Both the position numbers and the translations under genes were made by a program. A DNA stretch of 64,000 bases from Spirochaetales bacterium. Lineage in GTDB: Bacteria > Spirochaetota > Spirochaetia > SZUA-6 > DRHE01. A model generated the notes under the pieces. The model made no database searches, was not told where the DNA came from, and saw only the letters and a program-made list of their open reading frames with translations. The DNA lies in the NCBI GenBank assembly GCA_030604195.1, contig JAUVWI010000012.1, positions 1-64,000 of the forward strand, written 5' to 3'. This document shows positions 47,416 to 64,000 of this stretch, one piece after another (position 1 is the stretch's first letter; each line of letters begins with the position of its first letter).

Positions 47416-48604
47416 AAATATCATCGGTCAGGGAACGACAATTGAAATACTTAAAAAAGAGCTGCTGGCCAAAAACCTTCCCCGCGCCCTTCTCTTTTCC
47501 GGTCCTCAATACACCGGCAAACTTTCCACTGCACTGGAAACGGCAAGAGTTCTGACCTGCCAGGCTGAGAAAGGGGAATGGAATTGTTCCTGTAAAGCCT
47601 GCCGGGATCAGAGAGTGCTCAGCCATAATGACACACTGCTGCTTGGTCCGCATGATTTTAATGTTGAAATTGCAGCCGCAGCCGACGTTTTACGCAGAAC
47701 TAAAAAACTTTCAGCGCAGTATCTTTTTACCCGGGCAGTAAGAAAGCTGACCAGAAGATTCGATCAGATACTCTGGGAGGGTGAGGATACTAAGATTCGC
47801 AAAGTTCAGCCCCTGATTGCTGAACTTGAAGAGAGACTTGATGAATTTTCTCCGGATTCTGATCTACCGGCAAAAGAAGAGCTGGAAAAGGGTATTGAAC
47901 GTATTATGGAGATATCTTTAAAACTCATAACGGTTTTAAGTGCCGATAATATCCCTATTAATCAAGTTCGCCGGGCAAGTTACTGGTCACACCTTTCAAC
48001 AACGGGATCAAGTAAGGTTTTGATACTGGAGAATGCCGATCGTATGCATGAATCATCGCGCAACTCTCTATTGAAGATACTGGAAGAGCCTCCTGAAGAT
48101 GTATTCCTTATCCTGCTAACTTCTAATAAAGGAGCCATGATATCTACAATACTTTCGCGAGTTCGTTCTTACTCTTTTATTGAGCGATCTGTTCGGGAAA
48201 CAAGAGATGTTTTGAGGAGAATATTCCAGGAAGAGGATGAAAAGTATTCAACCATCAGGAAATATTTTTCATACTGGCAGGAGCTGAACCCCGAAGTCCT
48301 TACTAAGTTGGCGCGGAAATATGTCGATTTTCTTTTAGATGATAAAAAGGAAGAGCTGGATATTCTCACCGAAATGAAAATGCTGCTTTCCACAAAGGAA
48401 AAACGAAGTTCCGTTTCTTTCTTCCTGGAGGAGCTGGTCAATATTTTTTATGATCGTTATAGAGGCGGACAGCTATCACCATCCGGATTAAAAACAAGGC
48501 TTTCCCTGACACAGAATAAGCATATGGTTTTAAACCGGCTCAATCTCAATCCGGAGCTGGTTGTTGAATCTTTATTCTATTCCTTGAGTGAGCTTTCCCA
48601 ATGA
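47408..48604 (+). CDS. DNA polymerase III delta'/gamma-like clamp-loader subunit
   Basis: IIGQGTTIEILKKELLAKNLPRALLFSGPQYTGKLSTA; CSCKACR zinc motif; LKILEEPPEDVFLILLTS; SRVRSY. Confidence 0.82.
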   Translation: MFENIIGQGTTIEILKKELLAKNLPRALLFSGPQYTGKLSTALETARVLTCQAEKGEWNCSCKACRDQRVLSHNDTLLLGPHDFNVEIAAAADVLRRTKKLSAQYLFTRAVRKLTRRFDQILWEGEDTKIRKVQPLIAELEERLDEFSPDSDLPAKEELEKGIERIMEISLKLITVLSADNIPINQVRRASYWSHLSTTGSSKVLILENADRMHESSRNSLLKILEEPPEDVFLILLTSNKGAMISTILSRVRSYSFIERSVRETRDVLRRIFQEEDEKYSTIRKYFSYWQELNPEVLTKLARKYVDFLLDDKKEELDILTEMKMLLSTKEKRSSVSFFLEELVNIFYDRYRGGQLSPSGLKTRLSLTQNKHMVLNRLNLNPELVVESLFYSLSELSQ

Positions 48605-49767
48605 AAAGATTCGTTAATAAAGCTATTGAAAAAATTGCCAGGCTGGATAAAGAGCAGATCCATTCTTTCCTCACTGCTTTAGCTGCGGATAATGAGCTTT
48701 TAAAAATGGTATTTGACTCAATGCTCGACGGGGTTATTGTGACCGACTCCCAGCATAAAATACTTTTATATAATAAATCGGCTAAAAGAATGATCCCCTT
48801 TGTAAATGGTGACGCTTCCGGAAAGCTGATCTGGAAGATGATCAGTGATCGGGAAATAGCCGAATATTTTAAAGAAAAGCTGGTAAATCAGGAAAAAGTA
48901 AAAGACTATGAATTTACCCTGGCTAATGGCCTGGCGCTCACTCTTTCCTGTACTTTGATGCCACTGGTGCTGGAAGGAACAATAAGGGGCAATGTTCTGC
49001 ATATTGAGGATGTAACTGATAAAAGAGCCAGAGAAGCCCGTCTTCGGCGGGCGGAGAATTTGGCGGCGCTCACCACGCTGGCAGCCGGAGTGGCTCATGA
49101 AATAAAGAATCCTCTTGCCTCCATCGGCATTCACCTGCAGTTGATAAAAAGAGAAATAGAAGGAAAGAAAAAAGTAAATGTCAAACCGATTAAAGAATGC
49201 CACGCCATCCTGAACGAAGAGGTTGACCGCTTAAACCGCATTGTAGTTGATTTCCTTTTTGCAGTACGTCCAATGGACACCAGGTTAAAGATAAATGACC
49301 TTAACAGAGTTATTCGTGATCTTCTTGATTTTCTCAAGTTCGAACTTGATCAGGGGGGAATTGGCGTTGAGCTTAATCTCTCCAGGTATATTCCGGAAAT
49401 TGGGCTCGATGAAAAATATATGAAGCAGGCGCTGCTGAATATTATAAAAAACGCGATTTCCGCTATGCCCAATGGCGGTAAGTTGATTATCGAAACTCTG
49501 CAGCAGGGTGATGAGATCCAGTTGAAAGTTACTGATACGGGAACCGGGATACCGGATGAAATAATAGGTAAAATATTTGAACCCTATTTTACCACTAAAG
49601 ATTTTGGTTCAGGTTTGGGATTGACCCTGGTTTATAAAATTGTAAAGGAACATAAGGGAGACATAGCGATAAAATCAAAAGAGGGAGAGGGAACTACTTT
49701 TACGCTCAGCTTTCCAATACCACGGGGAGAAAAGAGACTCATCGGCTTTAAAGGAGAAACGGCATGA
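48601..49767 (+). CDS. PAS-domain histidine kinase, NtrB-like
   Basis: PAS VFDSMLDGVIVTDSQHKILLYN; GVAHEIKNPLASIGIHLQLI; TDTGTGIPDEIIGKIFEPYFTTK. Confidence 0.92.
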   Translation: MKRFVNKAIEKIARLDKEQIHSFLTALAADNELLKMVFDSMLDGVIVTDSQHKILLYNKSAKRMIPFVNGDASGKLIWKMISDREIAEYFKEKLVNQEKVKDYEFTLANGLALTLSCTLMPLVLEGTIRGNVLHIEDVTDKRAREARLRRAENLAALTTLAAGVAHEIKNPLASIGIHLQLIKREIEGKKKVNVKPIKECHAILNEEVDRLNRIVVDFLFAVRPMDTRLKINDLNRVIRDLLDFLKFELDQGGIGVELNLSRYIPEIGLDEKYMKQALLNIIKNAISAMPNGGKLIIETLQQGDEIQLKVTDTGTGIPDEIIGKIFEPYFTTKDFGSGLGLTLVYKIVKEHKGDIAIKSKEGEGTTFTLSFPIPRGEKRLIGFKGETA

Positions 49768-51113
49768 AATACAACATTCTTGTTGTAGATGATGAGAAGA
49801 ATATCCGGGAGGGTTTGGGGCGTGTTCTGGAATTAGACGGCTACCGCGTTTTTCTGGCTGCAGACGGCAGAAAAGGGTTGGAGCTGGTTGAGAGTGGAGA
49901 TATTGATTTAGTGATCAGCGATTTGAAAATGCCCGGGGTCAGCGGCGAAGAGCTGTTAAGGAAAACCAGGGATAAATATACGAATCTGCCGGTTATTATT
50001 CTCACCGGTCACGGCACAGTTGAAAATGCGGTACAAGCTATGAAGGATGGGGCCTTTGATTTTCTTACCAAGCCGATCAATCTTGAACATTTTGCTATCC
50101 TGGTTAAGAGAGCCCTCTCCAATAGAGAGTTGATACTGCAGCATCGTCATATGCAGAAGGAGCTGGAAAAGAGGAGCCAGTTCGCCAATATCATCGGAAA
50201 AAGCGCAGCTATGCATAGTATCTTTGAAAAGATTCGACAGGTGGCTCCCACCAGGGCTTCGATATTGATCACCGGAGAAAGCGGTGTGGGTAAGGAAGTA
50301 ATAGCAGAGGCAATTCATTATACCTCTCCACGCAAGGATAAACCTCTTATTAAGGTGCACTGCGCGGCTCTTACAGAAACGCTGCTGGAAAGCGAGCTCT
50401 TCGGTCATGAGAGAGGAGCTTTTACCGGTGCAGTGGCACGAAAAAGGGGACGCTTTGAACTTGCTCATCTGGGAAGCCTGTTCTTAGACGAAATAGGTGA
50501 AATAAGCCAGAGTGTTCAGATAAAATTACTGAGGGTGCTTCAGGATAAACAATTTGAAAGGGTGGGTGGTGAAGAGACTATTGAAACAGATGTGCGTATT
50601 ATTGCCGCAACCAACCGCGATTTAATGGCTGATATCAGTACAGGAAAATTCCGTGAAGATCTGTATTACAGGTTGAATGTTATAAATATCCATATCCCGC
50701 CGTTAAAGGAAAGAAACGAAGATATTCCTCTTTTGGTAGCTGCTTTTTTAAAAGAGTTTTCCCGGGAAAATAGCAAAAATATCGAGGGCATTGAGACAAA
50801 AGCGCGTCTGGCGCTGTATAATTATTCCTGGCCGGGGAATGTGCGTGAACTCAGGAATTGTATTGAGAGCGCGGTGGTTATGTCCAAAGATACAATTCTC
50901 TCATTGGAAGACCTGCCCCCGCATATCGGACAAACCTCCGGTGGGCAGAGCTTAAGGTTATCACCGGGAATATCTCTTGCAGAGGGAGAGAAAGAAATCA
51001 TACGTTCCGCTTTAAATATGAATAAGGGGAATAAAAGCAAGACAGCTGAAATTTTGGGTATTGGGAGAAAGACACTGCATCGCAAGATACAGGAATATAG
51101 TCTGGAGGGTTAG
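49764..51113 (+). CDS. Sigma-54-dependent NtrC-family response regulator
   Basis: Receiver ILVVDDEKNIREG; GESGVGKEVIAEAIH; ESELFGHERGAFTGA (sigma-54 contact loop); C-terminal Fis-type HTH. Confidence 0.95.
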   Translation: MKYNILVVDDEKNIREGLGRVLELDGYRVFLAADGRKGLELVESGDIDLVISDLKMPGVSGEELLRKTRDKYTNLPVIILTGHGTVENAVQAMKDGAFDFLTKPINLEHFAILVKRALSNRELILQHRHMQKELEKRSQFANIIGKSAAMHSIFEKIRQVAPTRASILITGESGVGKEVIAEAIHYTSPRKDKPLIKVHCAALTETLLESELFGHERGAFTGAVARKRGRFELAHLGSLFLDEIGEISQSVQIKLLRVLQDKQFERVGGEETIETDVRIIAATNRDLMADISTGKFREDLYYRLNVINIHIPPLKERNEDIPLLVAAFLKEFSRENSKNIEGIETKARLALYNYSWPGNVRELRNCIESAVVMSKDTILSLEDLPPHIGQTSGGQSLRLSPGISLAEGEKEIIRSALNMNKGNKSKTAEILGIGRKTLHRKIQEYSLEG

Positions 51114-59104: not shown

Positions 59105-61570
59105 TTGATGAGAGCGGCGAGCAGATTTACTCAAGAGTCGATCCTGCATGTACGGCAGGCAATCAATGAGGCGCAGGGAAATGAAGTACTGGTTGTCGGC
59201 TCTCTGGATGATAATAAAAAGATATGCTCAATCACTGTTGCCGCCCGCGGCAATGAAGAGGCCGTGCCGGCGCTGAAACCATATCTGGAAAAAGGCGATG
59301 TAATTGTTCACAATCACCCCTCTGCTTTATTGAAGCCCAGCTATGCAGATCTCCGGATTGCCGCCCAGTTGGGAAATCAGGGAATCGGATTCTATATTGT
59401 AGACAACAATGTGGAAAACACCTATGTGGTAGCCGAACCGGTAACGGGCAGGGAAATAAAGGCTCTGGATAGTGAAGAGTTATCGGCAATTTTAGAGCCC
59501 GGGGGAAAGTTAAACAGTTGCTTCCCCGCTTATGAGGAAAGGTTATCGCAGATTGAGATGCTCAAGTTTTGTACCATGGGTTTCAATAAAGATCTGATCT
59601 GTCTTTCTGAAGCAGGCACCGGTATAGGCAAATCCCTGGCCTATTTAATACCTGCATTTTCCTGGGTGTTGCGCAATGATGAAAGGGTGGTTGTATCCAC
59701 CGCAACCATCAATCTTCAGCAGCAGCTTATCGAAAAGGACATCCCCCTGGTAAAGCGTCTCTTGGGCAGTGATCCCGGTGTTGTACTGGTAAAGGGAAGA
59801 AGCAATTATCTCTGCCTTACACGTTTACGCGAGAGCAGCAGTGAGCTGTCCCTCTTTGATGAGGTTAATGAGAATTTGAACGCCATTGTTGAGTGGTCTT
59901 TGACTACAGCTACTGGAAGCAGGAGCGATCTCTCTTTTTTCCCTGATGATGACCTGTGGTACAGGCTATGTTCAGAGGCCGATGCCTGCAGGGGGTTGCG
60001 CTGCCCGGAGCGGGAGAGATGTTTCGTGCTTCGAGCCCGCAGGGAAGCGGCTGCAGCCCGTATTCTGGTGGTCAATCATCACCTGCTTTTCGCAGATCTC
60101 TCCATGCGTATTGCCGGCGCAGGATTTGAGAGTTCCGCCGTGCTGCCGCCCTTCCATAGAATTATCTTTGATGAAGCACATAACATAGAGAAAAGCGCTA
60201 CTTCCTTTTTTTCCCGGAGTTTCAGCTGCTTGAGTATAGCCAGGTATTCAGGCAGGCTTCTGCGGCAGAAAAAGGGGCGAAACTACGGTTTGCTGCCGGG
60301 CCTGGAGAAGCTATTACATCATCATAATCTTATAAATCAGATACAGAATTTTCTTAGTGAGGTAGCGGGGAAATCCCGTTCTCTGGATGCAATGTCTGCA
60401 CAGCTTCTCGACGGGAACCTTCCCGGCAGGAAGCTGAATTTTCGTCTTACCAATGAAACGCCTGAAATACAAACCCTGCTTCTGGAACCTTTGAATGATC
60501 TGCGAAAGAGTATAATGGTTCTACTCTCCTGTTTTGAAGAGCTCTTTAAGGGTCTCAGTGAGGAACAGGAAGAGGAGAGTATAGTATATGAGTGCCGGAT
60601 TGAGCTGCGCAGGTTGAACACAGTTGCCGAGATCTGCAGCCATTTTTTAAGATTTCAGGATAATGATCAAGATGTTTTCTGGCTGGAAAACCGCAAGAAT
60701 TACCGGGGTGAGAATTATACCAGATTTGTAATTACCCCCCTGGATATCTCGCTGTTGATGAATGAAGCGGTATATAAACCATATAAAACAGTCATTTTCA
60801 CCTCCGCTACTTTAGCTGTGAACCATAATTTTGATTTCTGGAAATCAAGGGTCGGTTTTAACAGCGCTGTTGAAAGGGAAATCAAGGAAGGATTTTTTGT
60901 TTCTCCTTTTAACTACAAAAGAGATGTGCTTCTGGGTATACCAAAAGAGGCGCCTCCGCCCTCGGAAGAGGGCTATACGGCTTTCATCTCTGCATTTGTG
61001 CAGGAGGTCTTGAAGATATCAGAGGGCAGAGCCTTACTCTTATTTACTTCTTACTCAATGTTGAAAGAGGTATACGACGAAGTGGCAGCGGGATTAAGGG
61101 AATGGGGAATCAATGTGCTGAGGCAGGGCGAGGATGACCGTAGCCGCCTGCTGCAGCGTTTCCAGGAGGACACGGCCAGCGTACTTCTGGCTACCGATTC
61201 ATTCTGGGAGGGTGTAGATACGCCTGGAGAAGCCTTAGAGGTAGTAATTATGTGCCGGCTTCCATTTCGAGTGCCTACCGATCCGGTTATTGAAGCTCGT
61301 TTAGAGGCTATAGAGAAAAGGGGCGGCAACTCTTTCTGGGAGCTCTTGCTGCCCGATGCAGTATTACGGTTGAAGCAGGGTTTTGGCCGGTTAATACGCC
61401 GGAAGAGCGACCGGGGCATAGTATTAATCCTGGATTCCAGGATAATTACAAAATCCTATGGCCGGATTTTTCTCTCTTCTCTTCCTGAAACTCCGCAAAT
61501 TGTTTCAGAGAGCAGGTTCCTGTTGGAGAAAGTGGAGAATTTTATTGTTAATATGCGAAGCAATCGGTAA
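59105..61570 (+). CDS. DinG/XPD-type helicase with an N-terminal JAMM-like domain
   Basis: N-term VHNHPSALLKPSYAD fits HxHx7Sx2D; LSEAGTGIGKSLAYLIPA; CRGLRCPERERC Fe-S cysteines; FDEAHN; GFGRLIRRKSDRG. Confidence 0.88.
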   Translation: MMRAASRFTQESILHVRQAINEAQGNEVLVVGSLDDNKKICSITVAARGNEEAVPALKPYLEKGDVIVHNHPSALLKPSYADLRIAAQLGNQGIGFYIVDNNVENTYVVAEPVTGREIKALDSEELSAILEPGGKLNSCFPAYEERLSQIEMLKFCTMGFNKDLICLSEAGTGIGKSLAYLIPAFSWVLRNDERVVVSTATINLQQQLIEKDIPLVKRLLGSDPGVVLVKGRSNYLCLTRLRESSSELSLFDEVNENLNAIVEWSLTTATGSRSDLSFFPDDDLWYRLCSEADACRGLRCPERERCFVLRARREAAAARILVVNHHLLFADLSMRIAGAGFESSAVLPPFHRIIFDEAHNIEKSATSFFSRSFSCLSIARYSGRLLRQKKGRNYGLLPGLEKLLHHHNLINQIQNFLSEVAGKSRSLDAMSAQLLDGNLPGRKLNFRLTNETPEIQTLLLEPLNDLRKSIMVLLSCFEELFKGLSEEQEEESIVYECRIELRRLNTVAEICSHFLRFQDNDQDVFWLENRKNYRGENYTRFVITPLDISLLMNEAVYKPYKTVIFTSATLAVNHNFDFWKSRVGFNSAVEREIKEGFFVSPFNYKRDVLLGIPKEAPPPSEEGYTAFISAFVQEVLKISEGRALLLFTSYSMLKEVYDEVAAGLREWGINVLRQGEDDRSRLLQRFQEDTASVLLATDSFWEGVDTPGEALEVVIMCRLPFRVPTDPVIEARLEAIEKRGGNSFWELLLPDAVLRLKQGFGRLIRRKSDRGIVLILDSRIITKSYGRIFLSSLPETPQIVSESRFLLEKVENFIVNMRSNR

Positions 61571-61633: not shown

Positions 61634-61897
61634 TTATTCGATAACAGCTAGAAGGTCATCCATCTTAAGGATAAGCTGTTCTTCGCCCTCTACCTTAATG
61701 GTGGAACCGGCGTATTTATCATAAATTACGCGGTCCTTGACTTTTACTTTAATTTCCTCATCAGTGCCGACCGCAAGGACAATACCTTCCTGGGTTTTCT
61801 CCTGAGCGGTCTGGGGAATTAGGATTCCTCCGGCGGTTTTTGCTTCTGCTTCCACCATTTTTACCAGCACACGTTCTCCTAGAGGCTTGATTTTCAC
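61634..61897 (-). CDS. groS: Co-chaperonin GroES
   Basis: KIKPLGERVLVKMVEAEAKTAGGILIPQTAQEKTQEGIVLAVG. Confidence 0.96.
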   Translation of the reverse strand: MKIKPLGERVLVKMVEAEAKTAGGILIPQTAQEKTQEGIVLAVGTDEEIKVKVKDRVIYDKYAGSTIKVEGEEQLILKMDDLLAVIE

Positions 61898-62052
61898 TGC
61901 TTTCCTCCTGAATTTGATTAAAAAGTTCTACAAAGGTTAATGATTTGTATTTTAAAGTGAATATACGCATTAAGATCATCAGGGTCAAGCAAATTGTTTC
62001 ACAAAATCATTTTACCGGAGCAGTAGATTAACTGCAATCTTGCTCTTTGAAT

Positions 62053-62116
62053 CATTTTGTCCCAGTTTTATGGTTGTAAGGAGGAATTGGGACATTTTGT
62101 CCCATTTCAGTGAAAT
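62053..62116 (+). promoter_or_regulatory. Cluster of dyad and direct repeats, candidate activator-binding sites upstream of the sigma factor gene
   Basis: CATTTTGTCCCA at 62053-62064 and 62093-62104; TGGGACA-TTT-TGTCCCA at 62088-62104; ATTTCA-G-TGAAAT at 62104-62116. Confidence 0.65.
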
Positions 62117-62189: not shown

Positions 62190-62206
62190 TTGGCACGATA
62201 GTTGCA
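62190..62206 (+). promoter_or_regulatory. Sigma-54 (-24/-12) promoter
   Basis: TTGGCACG-ATAG-TTGCA matches YTGGCACG-N4-TTGCW. Confidence 0.85.
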
Positions 62207-62232
62207 TATACTTCATTGGAGGAAATTAAAAA

Positions 62233-63132
62233 ATGATTACAGCAACCAAAGAAACAAAAATTAAGAATACAAGAAAGGGAAAAATTATAAATACTAACAA
62301 CAATGATGACAATATTCTCTCCTTATATCTGAAGGAAATCAATACTATTTCCCTGCTGACCAGAGAGGAAGAGGTAAAATATGCAACAGAAGCGGCTTCA
62401 GGAAATGAGTTTGCCAAAAACAAACTCATTAAAGCCAACCTTCGTTTTGTAGTAAATGTAGCTAAAAAATACCAGAATCAGGGTTTGCCTTTAGCTGATC
62501 TGATAAGTGAGGGCAATATCGGTCTGATGAATGCGATCGAACGTTTTGATGTTGAAAAGGGCTATCATTTTATTTCTTATGCGGTCTGGTGGATTCGACA
62601 GGCTATACTCAAAGCAATCTGTGAAAAATCAAGAATGATCAGGCTACCTTTAAATAGGGCGAATGAACTGGTGCAGATTGAGAAGGTGCGTAAGGACATG
62701 CAGAGCGATAACGGCCTTGAACCGGAAATGGAGGAAATCGCCAAAAAACTTTCCATGGATAAAGAACATGTAGAGGATTTATTGAATATTTCCCGTGACC
62801 TCGTTTCCCTGGATACACCGGTCTATGATGAAAAGGATTCTTCACTCTTAAGCGATTTTGTTGAAGATAAAGGATATCAGGCGCCTGATGAAATGGCCAT
62901 CGATAATTCTTTACGGGCTGATATTAATGATCTACTGGACACCTTGAGCCACAAGGAATCTGATATTATCCAGTATCGTTACGGGCTTAACGGCAGAAGG
63001 CCCATGTCACTTAAAGAGATAGGAACCCGTTATAATCTCACTAAAGAACGTATACGACAAATAGAGAAAAAGGCTATCAAACGCCTGCAGCACCCTTCGC
63101 GCAGCCAGTATTTAGCCTCATATATAGCCTGA
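62233..63132 (+). CDS. RpoD/RpoS-type (group 1/2) RNA polymerase sigma factor lacking region 1.1
   Basis: LIKANLRFVVNVAKKYQNQGLPLADLISEGNIGLMNAIERFD, FISYAVWWIRQAILKAI, LKEIGTRYNLTKERIRQIEKKAIKRLQHP. Confidence 0.92.
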   Translation: MITATKETKIKNTRKGKIINTNNNDDNILSLYLKEINTISLLTREEEVKYATEAASGNEFAKNKLIKANLRFVVNVAKKYQNQGLPLADLISEGNIGLMNAIERFDVEKGYHFISYAVWWIRQAILKAICEKSRMIRLPLNRANELVQIEKVRKDMQSDNGLEPEMEEIAKKLSMDKEHVEDLLNISRDLVSLDTPVYDEKDSSLLSDFVEDKGYQAPDEMAIDNSLRADINDLLDTLSHKESDIIQYRYGLNGRRPMSLKEIGTRYNLTKERIRQIEKKAIKRLQHPSRSQYLASYIA

Positions 63133-63320: not shown

Positions 63321-63374
63321 TTTTAGATTGACCACAACTAAATAAAAATAACAGTACAGATGGAGGTGTCTTTG

Positions 63375-64000
63375 GTGGCTAAAGATAAAAAAGATAAATT
63401 TGTATATTTCTTCGGCGGCGGTAAGGCTGAAGGTAAAACAGAGATGAAGGATTTGCTTGGCGGCAAGGGCGCCAATCTTGCAGAGATGACCAATATAGGA
63501 ATTCCCGTGCCCCCGGGTTTTACAATTACAACCGAGGTTTGTGATATTTATAATAAAAATAACAATAAATATCCCGCATCCCTGAGCGGTGAAGTAAAAG
63601 AGAATCTGAAAAAACTGGAATCTCTGATGGGCAAGAAGCTAGGTGATCCTAAAGATCCGCTTCTGGTTTCAGTTCGTTCAGGTGCGGCAGTCTCCATGCC
63701 TGGCATGATGGATACCGTACTGAACCTGGGATTAACAGACAGTGCGGTTGCCGCTCTGGCAGAGATGTCCGGCAATGAGCGTTTTGCCTGGGACGCGTAC
63801 AGGCGTTTTATCCAGATGTATGGAAACGTGGTAATGGGTGTTCCTCACCATGACTTTGAGCAGGAGCTTGCCAGTGTAAAAAAGGAAAAGGGTATCGAAG
63901 AGGACACTCATCTGGACGTAGATGATCTGAAGAAAGTGGTTGCCGGGTATAAAAAGATATATAGGAAGCATACAAAAGAAGATTTCCCCCAGGAACCGGA
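63375..64000 (+). CDS. ppdK: Pyruvate, phosphate dikinase, N-terminal part (runs off the window; absent from the ORF track)
   Basis: GGAGGTG RBS, GTG start; VYFFGGGKAEGKTEMKDLLGGKGANLAEMTNIGIPVPPGFTITTEVC..VSVRSGAAVSMPGMMDTVLNLGL. Confidence 0.93.
   Translation, partial: MAKDKKDKFVYFFGGGKAEGKTEMKDLLGGKGANLAEMTNIGIPVPPGFTITTEVCDIYNKNNNKYPASLSGEVKENLKKLESLMGKKLGDPKDPLLVSVRSGAAVSMPGMMDTVLNLGLTDSAVAALAEMSGNERFAWDAYRRFIQMYGNVVMGVPHHDFEQELASVKKEKGIEEDTHLDVDDLKKVVAGYKKIYRKHTKEDFPQEP

Follow-up and report, generated by a model that had tools for sequence, protein, structure and literature searches.

A conserved sigma-54-type promoter with tandem predicted enhancer sites before a TP1012-like secondary sigma factor gene in spirochaetes

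We analysed a stretch of 64,000 nucleotides (the window) from the 3.83 Mb assembly of a spirochaete, whose nearest named relative is Spirochaetales bacterium HyVt-362, with a sigma factor 95% identical to the one described here. In this window, a -24/-12 element of the sigma-54 type precedes the gene of a secondary sigma-70-family factor, with a pair of predicted enhancer dyads upstream of it and an orthologue of the Borreliaceae activator Rrp2 encoded on the same strand. Reading and comparison of sequences establish these parts, as well as rpoN in the genome, and also their conservation and physical linkage in relatives. On this evidence a cascade from sigma-54 to the sigma factor is well supported, and we consider it highly probable that an Hk2/Rrp2-like pair acts through the dyads on sigma-54 at the -24/-12 element, yielding a secondary sigma factor with its own regulon. 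The circuit works like the Rrp2-RpoN-RpoS (sigma54-sigmaS) cascade established in Borrelia burgdorferi (PMC11109971, PMC1976401), but its sigma belongs to another family and has an enhancer of its own.

The promoter element is found on the forward strand at 62190-62206, and consists of TTGGCACG (62190-62197), ATAG and TTGCA (62202-62206). Ten nucleotides lie between the GG at 62192-62193 and the GC at 62204-62205, which is the sigma-54 spacing, and this GG-N10-GC core has the TGGCAYG / TTGCW context of a sigma-54 promoter. The only exact TGGCACGNNNNTTGCW match of the window is found here, and it is unusual because looser matches, with up to 2 mismatches, are about as common as expected (6 in the window vs 7.7 expected). 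In the whole 3.83 Mb genome there are just 5 perfect TGGCAYG-N4-TTGCW sites. By geometry, about 12 nt after the -12 GC, transcription is predicted to start near 62217 on the forward strand. The leader would then have about 16 nt, with the Shine-Dalgarno sequence GGAGGA (62218-62223, forward strand, read directly and in relatives) almost at its 5' end and the ATG at 62233. The original prediction had proposed this consensus match, the Shine-Dalgarno sequence and the start codon, and all of them hold on direct reading, the promoter also by its conservation in orthologues.

For this conservation, a weighted -24/-12 consensus was run over the upstream regions of orthologues (proteins sharing mostly 57-95% identity), at a cut-off of at least 0.85. 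The cut-off is reached in 110 of 117 distinct orthologous upstream regions, with a perfect site in 71 of the 117, and four more fall just under it. As the relatives share ancestry, these counts are not independent events; in the compared pairs, though, intergenic sequence could hardly be aligned outside the genus. A short consensus can be matched by chance, and 84 of 2344 control windows of 450 bp from the same loci (3.6%) do contain a site scoring at least 0.85. None of these 2344 windows has a perfect site, however, and none of 2340 shuffles has one either. Conservation in the orthologues thus puts the element at 62190-62206 beyond chance, and a fortuitous match, whose probability we take as negligible, is ruled out. 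In relatives, the start codon also follows the -12 C closely, most often after 23-36 nt.

Some lineages show variants of the element. In treponemes of genus g41 (L137, L285, L160, L313, L315) the -24 part is TAGCA, not TGGCA, before most sigma genes, and in G123 (L301, L314) the -12 part reads ATGC before both sigma genes. These lineage-specific shifts suggest co-evolution with RpoN.

Upstream of the promoter we found two dyads, both on the forward strand. Their consensus is the 17-bp TGNGNCA-N3-TGNCNCA, scored out of 10 positions. Dyad 1 (TGGGACATTTTGTCCCA, 62088-62104) has half-sites TGGGACA and TGTCCCA around TTT and matches at 10/10, the sole such match in the window. Dyad 2 (TGAATCATTTTGTCCCA, 62048-62064), with TGAATCA and TGTCCCA around TTT, matches at 9/10. 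The two are exactly 40 bp apart, with centres about 121 and 161 bp upstream of the predicted +1. Only three dyads of 9/10 or better are present in the 64 kb, two of them being this pair. The third, at 47619-47635, stands alone (9/10) in a holB-like gene, roughly 1 kb ahead of the gene for the sensor kinase, and is probably due to chance.

The motif was revealed by k-mer enrichment upstream of the -24 part, where words of the TGACACA/TGACCCA type occur in 50 orthologues vs 2.4 expected and in 36 vs 1.6 expected; a generic inverted-repeat scan gave weak enrichment. Dyads of at least 8/10 are present in 104 of 115 orthologue upstream regions vs 7% of shuffles, and dyads of at least 9/10 in 70 of 115 vs 0.6%. 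Pairs 40 bp apart occur in 82 of the 115, against 0 of 2000 control windows. Because the motif was derived from these same orthologues, the weight rests on the shuffle and control comparisons and not on the raw counts. In 11 of the 115 no dyad of at least 8/10 is found within 250 bp. We also considered a covarying long hairpin between two TGYCCCA half-sites, from a two-row alignment, and rejected it since the dyad model fits better over the 115 relatives.

Tandem dyads with a 3-bp spacer, about 100-200 bp upstream, resemble an NtrC-type enhancer, and as predicted sites they supply the upstream activator sites expected of a sigma-54 promoter. The TGNGNCA half-site presumably differs from that of NtrC. 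The dyads sit in the divergent spacer between groES and the sigma gene and could serve groES instead. They are also present where no adjacent groES was found (L140), and at sigma-54 promoters of Hsp20 genes. Two of these genes, L250 (in G060, which has a single activator) and L263 (in G038), have a perfect -24/-12 site and dyad pairs about 40 bp apart, and would likely also belong to the Rrp2 regulon. No dyads of at least 8/10 were found at the remaining perfect -24/-12 sites in the window's own genome.

The clear exceptions without a -24/-12 element, L166, L182 and L183, are paralogues. L182 is directly behind dinG, and so apparently is L183, judging from its upstream sequence. These two dinG-adjacent copies have neither the element nor the dyads, and the second copy in the same genome (L171 and L174, respectively) has both. 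The more distant secondary-sigma paralogues tested mostly have neither, and RpoD upstream regions in the relatives' genomes score at most 0.76 for -24/-12. Such dinG-adjacent paralogues of the same family allow a reading where the gene is expressed chiefly from a sigma-70-type promoter or through regulation in the groES region, with the -24/-12 element as a secondary promoter. We regard this as improbable, given that the element is near-universal, stands close to the start codon and has its own enhancer.

The gene behind this promoter (62233-63132, forward strand) encodes a sigma-70-family factor of 299 aa, of the TP1012-like family. Pfam assigns it regions 1.2, 2, 3 and 4 only, which agrees with the earlier claim that region 1.1 is missing. 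In this it resembles Group 2 sigmas and proteobacterial RpoS. Unlike the latter, at 267 bits it is well below the cut-off of 378.7 bits for the RpoS equivalog TIGR02394 in NCBIfam, and in the sigma tree it does not branch with E. coli RpoS. It is also well under the cut-off of the NCBIfam RpoD equivalog. Group 1 features are lacking, as it has no region 1.1 or long non-conserved region and is not the only RpoD candidate: a separate RpoD of 576 aa is encoded on contig C119, which excludes a sole housekeeping sigma. Besides RpoD, the genome has seven other sigma-70-family genes. The neighbourhood is dinG-[groES]-sigma-ppdK, with a conserved DinG-type helicase gene upstream (59105-61570, forward strand), divergent groES (61634-61897, reverse strand) kept beside the sigma gene, and a conserved pyruvate phosphate dikinase-like gene downstream (ppdK, 63360-64000, forward strand) that runs off the window.

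The rest of the sigma-54 machinery is present as well. The genome has one convincing rpoN, with the RpoN-box-like ARRTIAKYRK, so that an absence of rpoN, which would have spoken against the prediction, is excluded; rpoN was found in 59 of 61 relatives. Nine full-length sigma-54 activators of the NtrC type are encoded, and thus both rpoN and enhancer-binding proteins accompany the promoter. Perfect sigma-54 sites also stand directly before the genes of a 309/318-aa protein family in this genome (C8:71970, L252) and in G028 (L251), whose members share 26% identity. The 309-aa protein has no Pfam match and the pair has no profile match to sigma factors, therefore it was rejected as a sigma factor.

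Within the window, murG-cvpA-holB-like genes are followed by a candidate activator pair, both on the forward strand. The first gene (48601-49767) encodes an Hk2-like PAS-HisKA-HATPase sensor kinase, 34% identical to the kinase beside Borreliaceae Rrp2. The second (49764-51113) encodes an NtrC-type response regulator with a receiver, a GAFTGA AAA+ domain and a Fis HTH, which is the full-length counterpart (53%) of Borreliaceae Rrp2, and so an Rrp2 orthologue and the likely activator. The Rrp2 comparison covered the genome's own activators other than L013, L015 and L020; those on C11 and C143 are more distant in the comparison with relatives.

Every one of the 61 genomes in the relatives set has a strong Rrp2-like match. 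In 32 of them it shares a contig with the sigma gene, and in 26 of these 32 the two are 3.1-13 kb apart on the same strand, with the regulator upstream of the sigma gene in 25 of the 26. The HTH of the activator is well conserved. In several genomes the Rrp2-like protein is the sole activator; of these, G031, G035 and G056 have dyads at the sigma promoter, and G035 has no perfect -24/-12 site other than that promoter. From this ubiquity, the linkage to the sigma gene, the sole-activator genomes with dyads and the dyad pairs at Hsp20 genes, we strongly infer that the Rrp2-like protein binds the dyads.

As the genome has nine full-length activators, one of the eight others could drive the sigma gene through sigma-54 in place of the Rrp2-like protein, and an activator/rpoN pair is indeed present on C11. 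We find this unlikely, since every genome of the set has the Rrp2 orthologue, its gene is linked to that of the sigma factor, and single-activator genomes, where the dyads are present, offer no other candidate.

With the Rrp2-like protein as activator, we infer sigma-54-dependent transcription, an inducing signal and a target regulon, in the following order. A signal would reach the PAS sensor kinase (48601-49767), which would lead to activation of the regulator (49764-51113). The regulator would then bind both 17-bp dyads, which lie 40 bp from each other and some 120 and 160 bp ahead of the start site, and oligomerise there. Through DNA looping, it would open RNA polymerase-sigma54 waiting at 62190-62206, and the secondary sigma gene would be transcribed with a very short leader. 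The secondary sigma could finally redirect the polymerase to its own regulon, making this a sigma-54-gated switch that yields a sigma-70-family sigma.

The same logic and activator family operate in Borrelia, where rpoS is 6.7 kb from rrp2 in Borreliaceae. One could then take the window gene as Borrelia rpoS itself, and the circuit as the known Rrp2-RpoN-RpoS pathway. The evidence makes this very unlikely. In a tree of 63 sigma proteins, rebuilt without the longest rows after a quick tree warned of long branches, Borreliaceae RpoS joins (support 100/97) a second sigma family of spirochaetes, whose member in the window's own genome is encoded on C128. The AU test rejects a tree that unites Borrelia RpoS and the window family (p=0.007), with the caveat that the Borrelia branch is long. 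For this reason, gene order was examined independently of the tree. Borreliaceae rpoS lies in the order flgF-flgG-flgA-flgI-rodJ-rpoS-297aa-tsaD, named from sequence appearance and mutual matches and not from an annotated record. The same order is seen at C128 and in G048, with fragments of it in G032 and G038. The flgI-rodJ-sigma-297aa-tsaD neighbourhood surrounds the C128 sigma and is not found at the window sigma, which has dinG-groES-sigma-ppdK.

The second sigma (C128:75073-75957, L340; L342:8573-9457), with its 297-codon frame, is thus the syntenic orthologue of Borrelia rpoS. Tree and synteny together rule out the window sigma as an orthologue of Borrelia RpoS (BB0771), under the same long-branch caveat. 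By these comparisons, the window sigma is distinct both from RpoD and from the orthologue of Borrelia RpoS, and its likeness to RpoS would be one of analogy, not of homology. The RpoN-to-RpoS-like cascade of the original prediction therefore stands in part: a sigma-54-type promoter before a non-housekeeping sigma, rpoN, activators and class-wide conservation were all found, but orthology with Borrelia RpoS does not hold. The enhancer dyads and the Hk2/Rrp2-like operon of the window had gone unnoticed in that prediction.

The C128 sigma also has a -24/-12-type site, TGGCATTAAACTTGCT. Sites of this second family are perfect in G048, G032 and G038, and score 0.95-1.0 in four Borreliaceae, so the genes served by sigma-54 in the window's own genome appear to include two for sigma-70-family factors. 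No dyads of at least 8/10 were found at the second sigma in C128, G048, G032, G038 or Borreliaceae. The window circuit shares with B. burgdorferi an orthologous NtrC-type activator with an adjacent kinase, RpoN and a -24/-12 site before a sigma-70-family sigma, and differs in the gene family of the driven sigma and in having a tandem enhancer, where Rrp2 was reported to activate Borrelia rpoS without an upstream enhancer (PMC1976401).

Genome G099 (1,139,633 bp) is presumably that of T. pallidum, as its size fits the Nichols strain and gene positions agree. It has an rpoN match, an Rrp2 orthologue (61%) and a sigma gene beside divergent groES with a perfect TGGCATGATATTTGCT. This sigma, by position TP1012, is the syntenic orthologue of the window sigma, about 40% identical, and unlike it has no enhancer dyads. 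TP1012 is annotated only as an RNA polymerase sigma factor, and the protein was detected by mass spectrometry (PMC5015957). No convincing dyad pair was found in G099, and a C128-type sigma was not detected there. Because the G099 gene keeps its -24/-12 site without dyads, the enhancer is not indispensable to the TP1012-like family. The only other perfect -24/-12 site of G099 (G099:C1:1136989, L441) is 26 nt before a 177-aa gene. The product of this gene looks like the Dps/bacterioferritin that we take to be TpF1.

Genome G043 (chromosome 917,330 bp) is, we assume, B. turicatae. Its rpoN frame (G043:C1:472400-472828, L271) is broken by several stops, and the -24/-12 site of rpoS is intact. No dyad pair was found on the G043 chromosome. 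A truncated rpoN has been published for New World relapsing-fever species, B. turicatae among them (PMC8316131).

In Treponema denticola, Hpk2/Rrp2 (TDE1970/TDE1969) are a PAS kinase and a predicted sigma-54 activator, described as unstudied and with no known target (PMC12070737). By name and domain make-up they are of the same kind as the window pair, a likeness drawn from the description only. AtcR of T. denticola was rejected as the sigma-54 activator, since its domain is of the LytTR type and the activator predicted there is Rrp2 (PMC12070737). In the open-access literature searched, we found no earlier account of TGNGNCA-type dyads, of the TP1012 promoter or of the circuit in any organism but Borrelia, an absence that is not proof of novelty.

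In B. burgdorferi, the sigma54-to-sigmaS cascade controls transmission and infection genes (PMC11109971, PMC1976401). By our comparison, the activator-RpoN-sigma logic extends over the class Spirochaetia and is seen in free-living species, gut species and the T. pallidum-matching G099. For the Rrp2 family the comparison supplies a candidate site on the DNA, and for Treponema Rrp2, so far unstudied, it names the sigma gene as a first predicted target. It also brings an orthologue and synteny to the dispute over where Borrelia RpoS comes from (PMC6719511).

Lastly, the ancestral spirochaete may have had one Hk2/Rrp2-RpoN module feeding both a TP1012-like sigma with a tandem enhancer and an RpoS-like sigma with no enhancer. 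Borrelia would have kept RpoS only, T. pallidum TP1012 only, and free-living species, the present one included, both. We give this history about an even chance. If it is true, the enhancer-independence of Borrelia Rrp2 would reflect the loss of the enhancer-bearing branch and not a peculiarity of the protein. These predictions are open to testing in non-pathogenic, cultivable spirochaetes.
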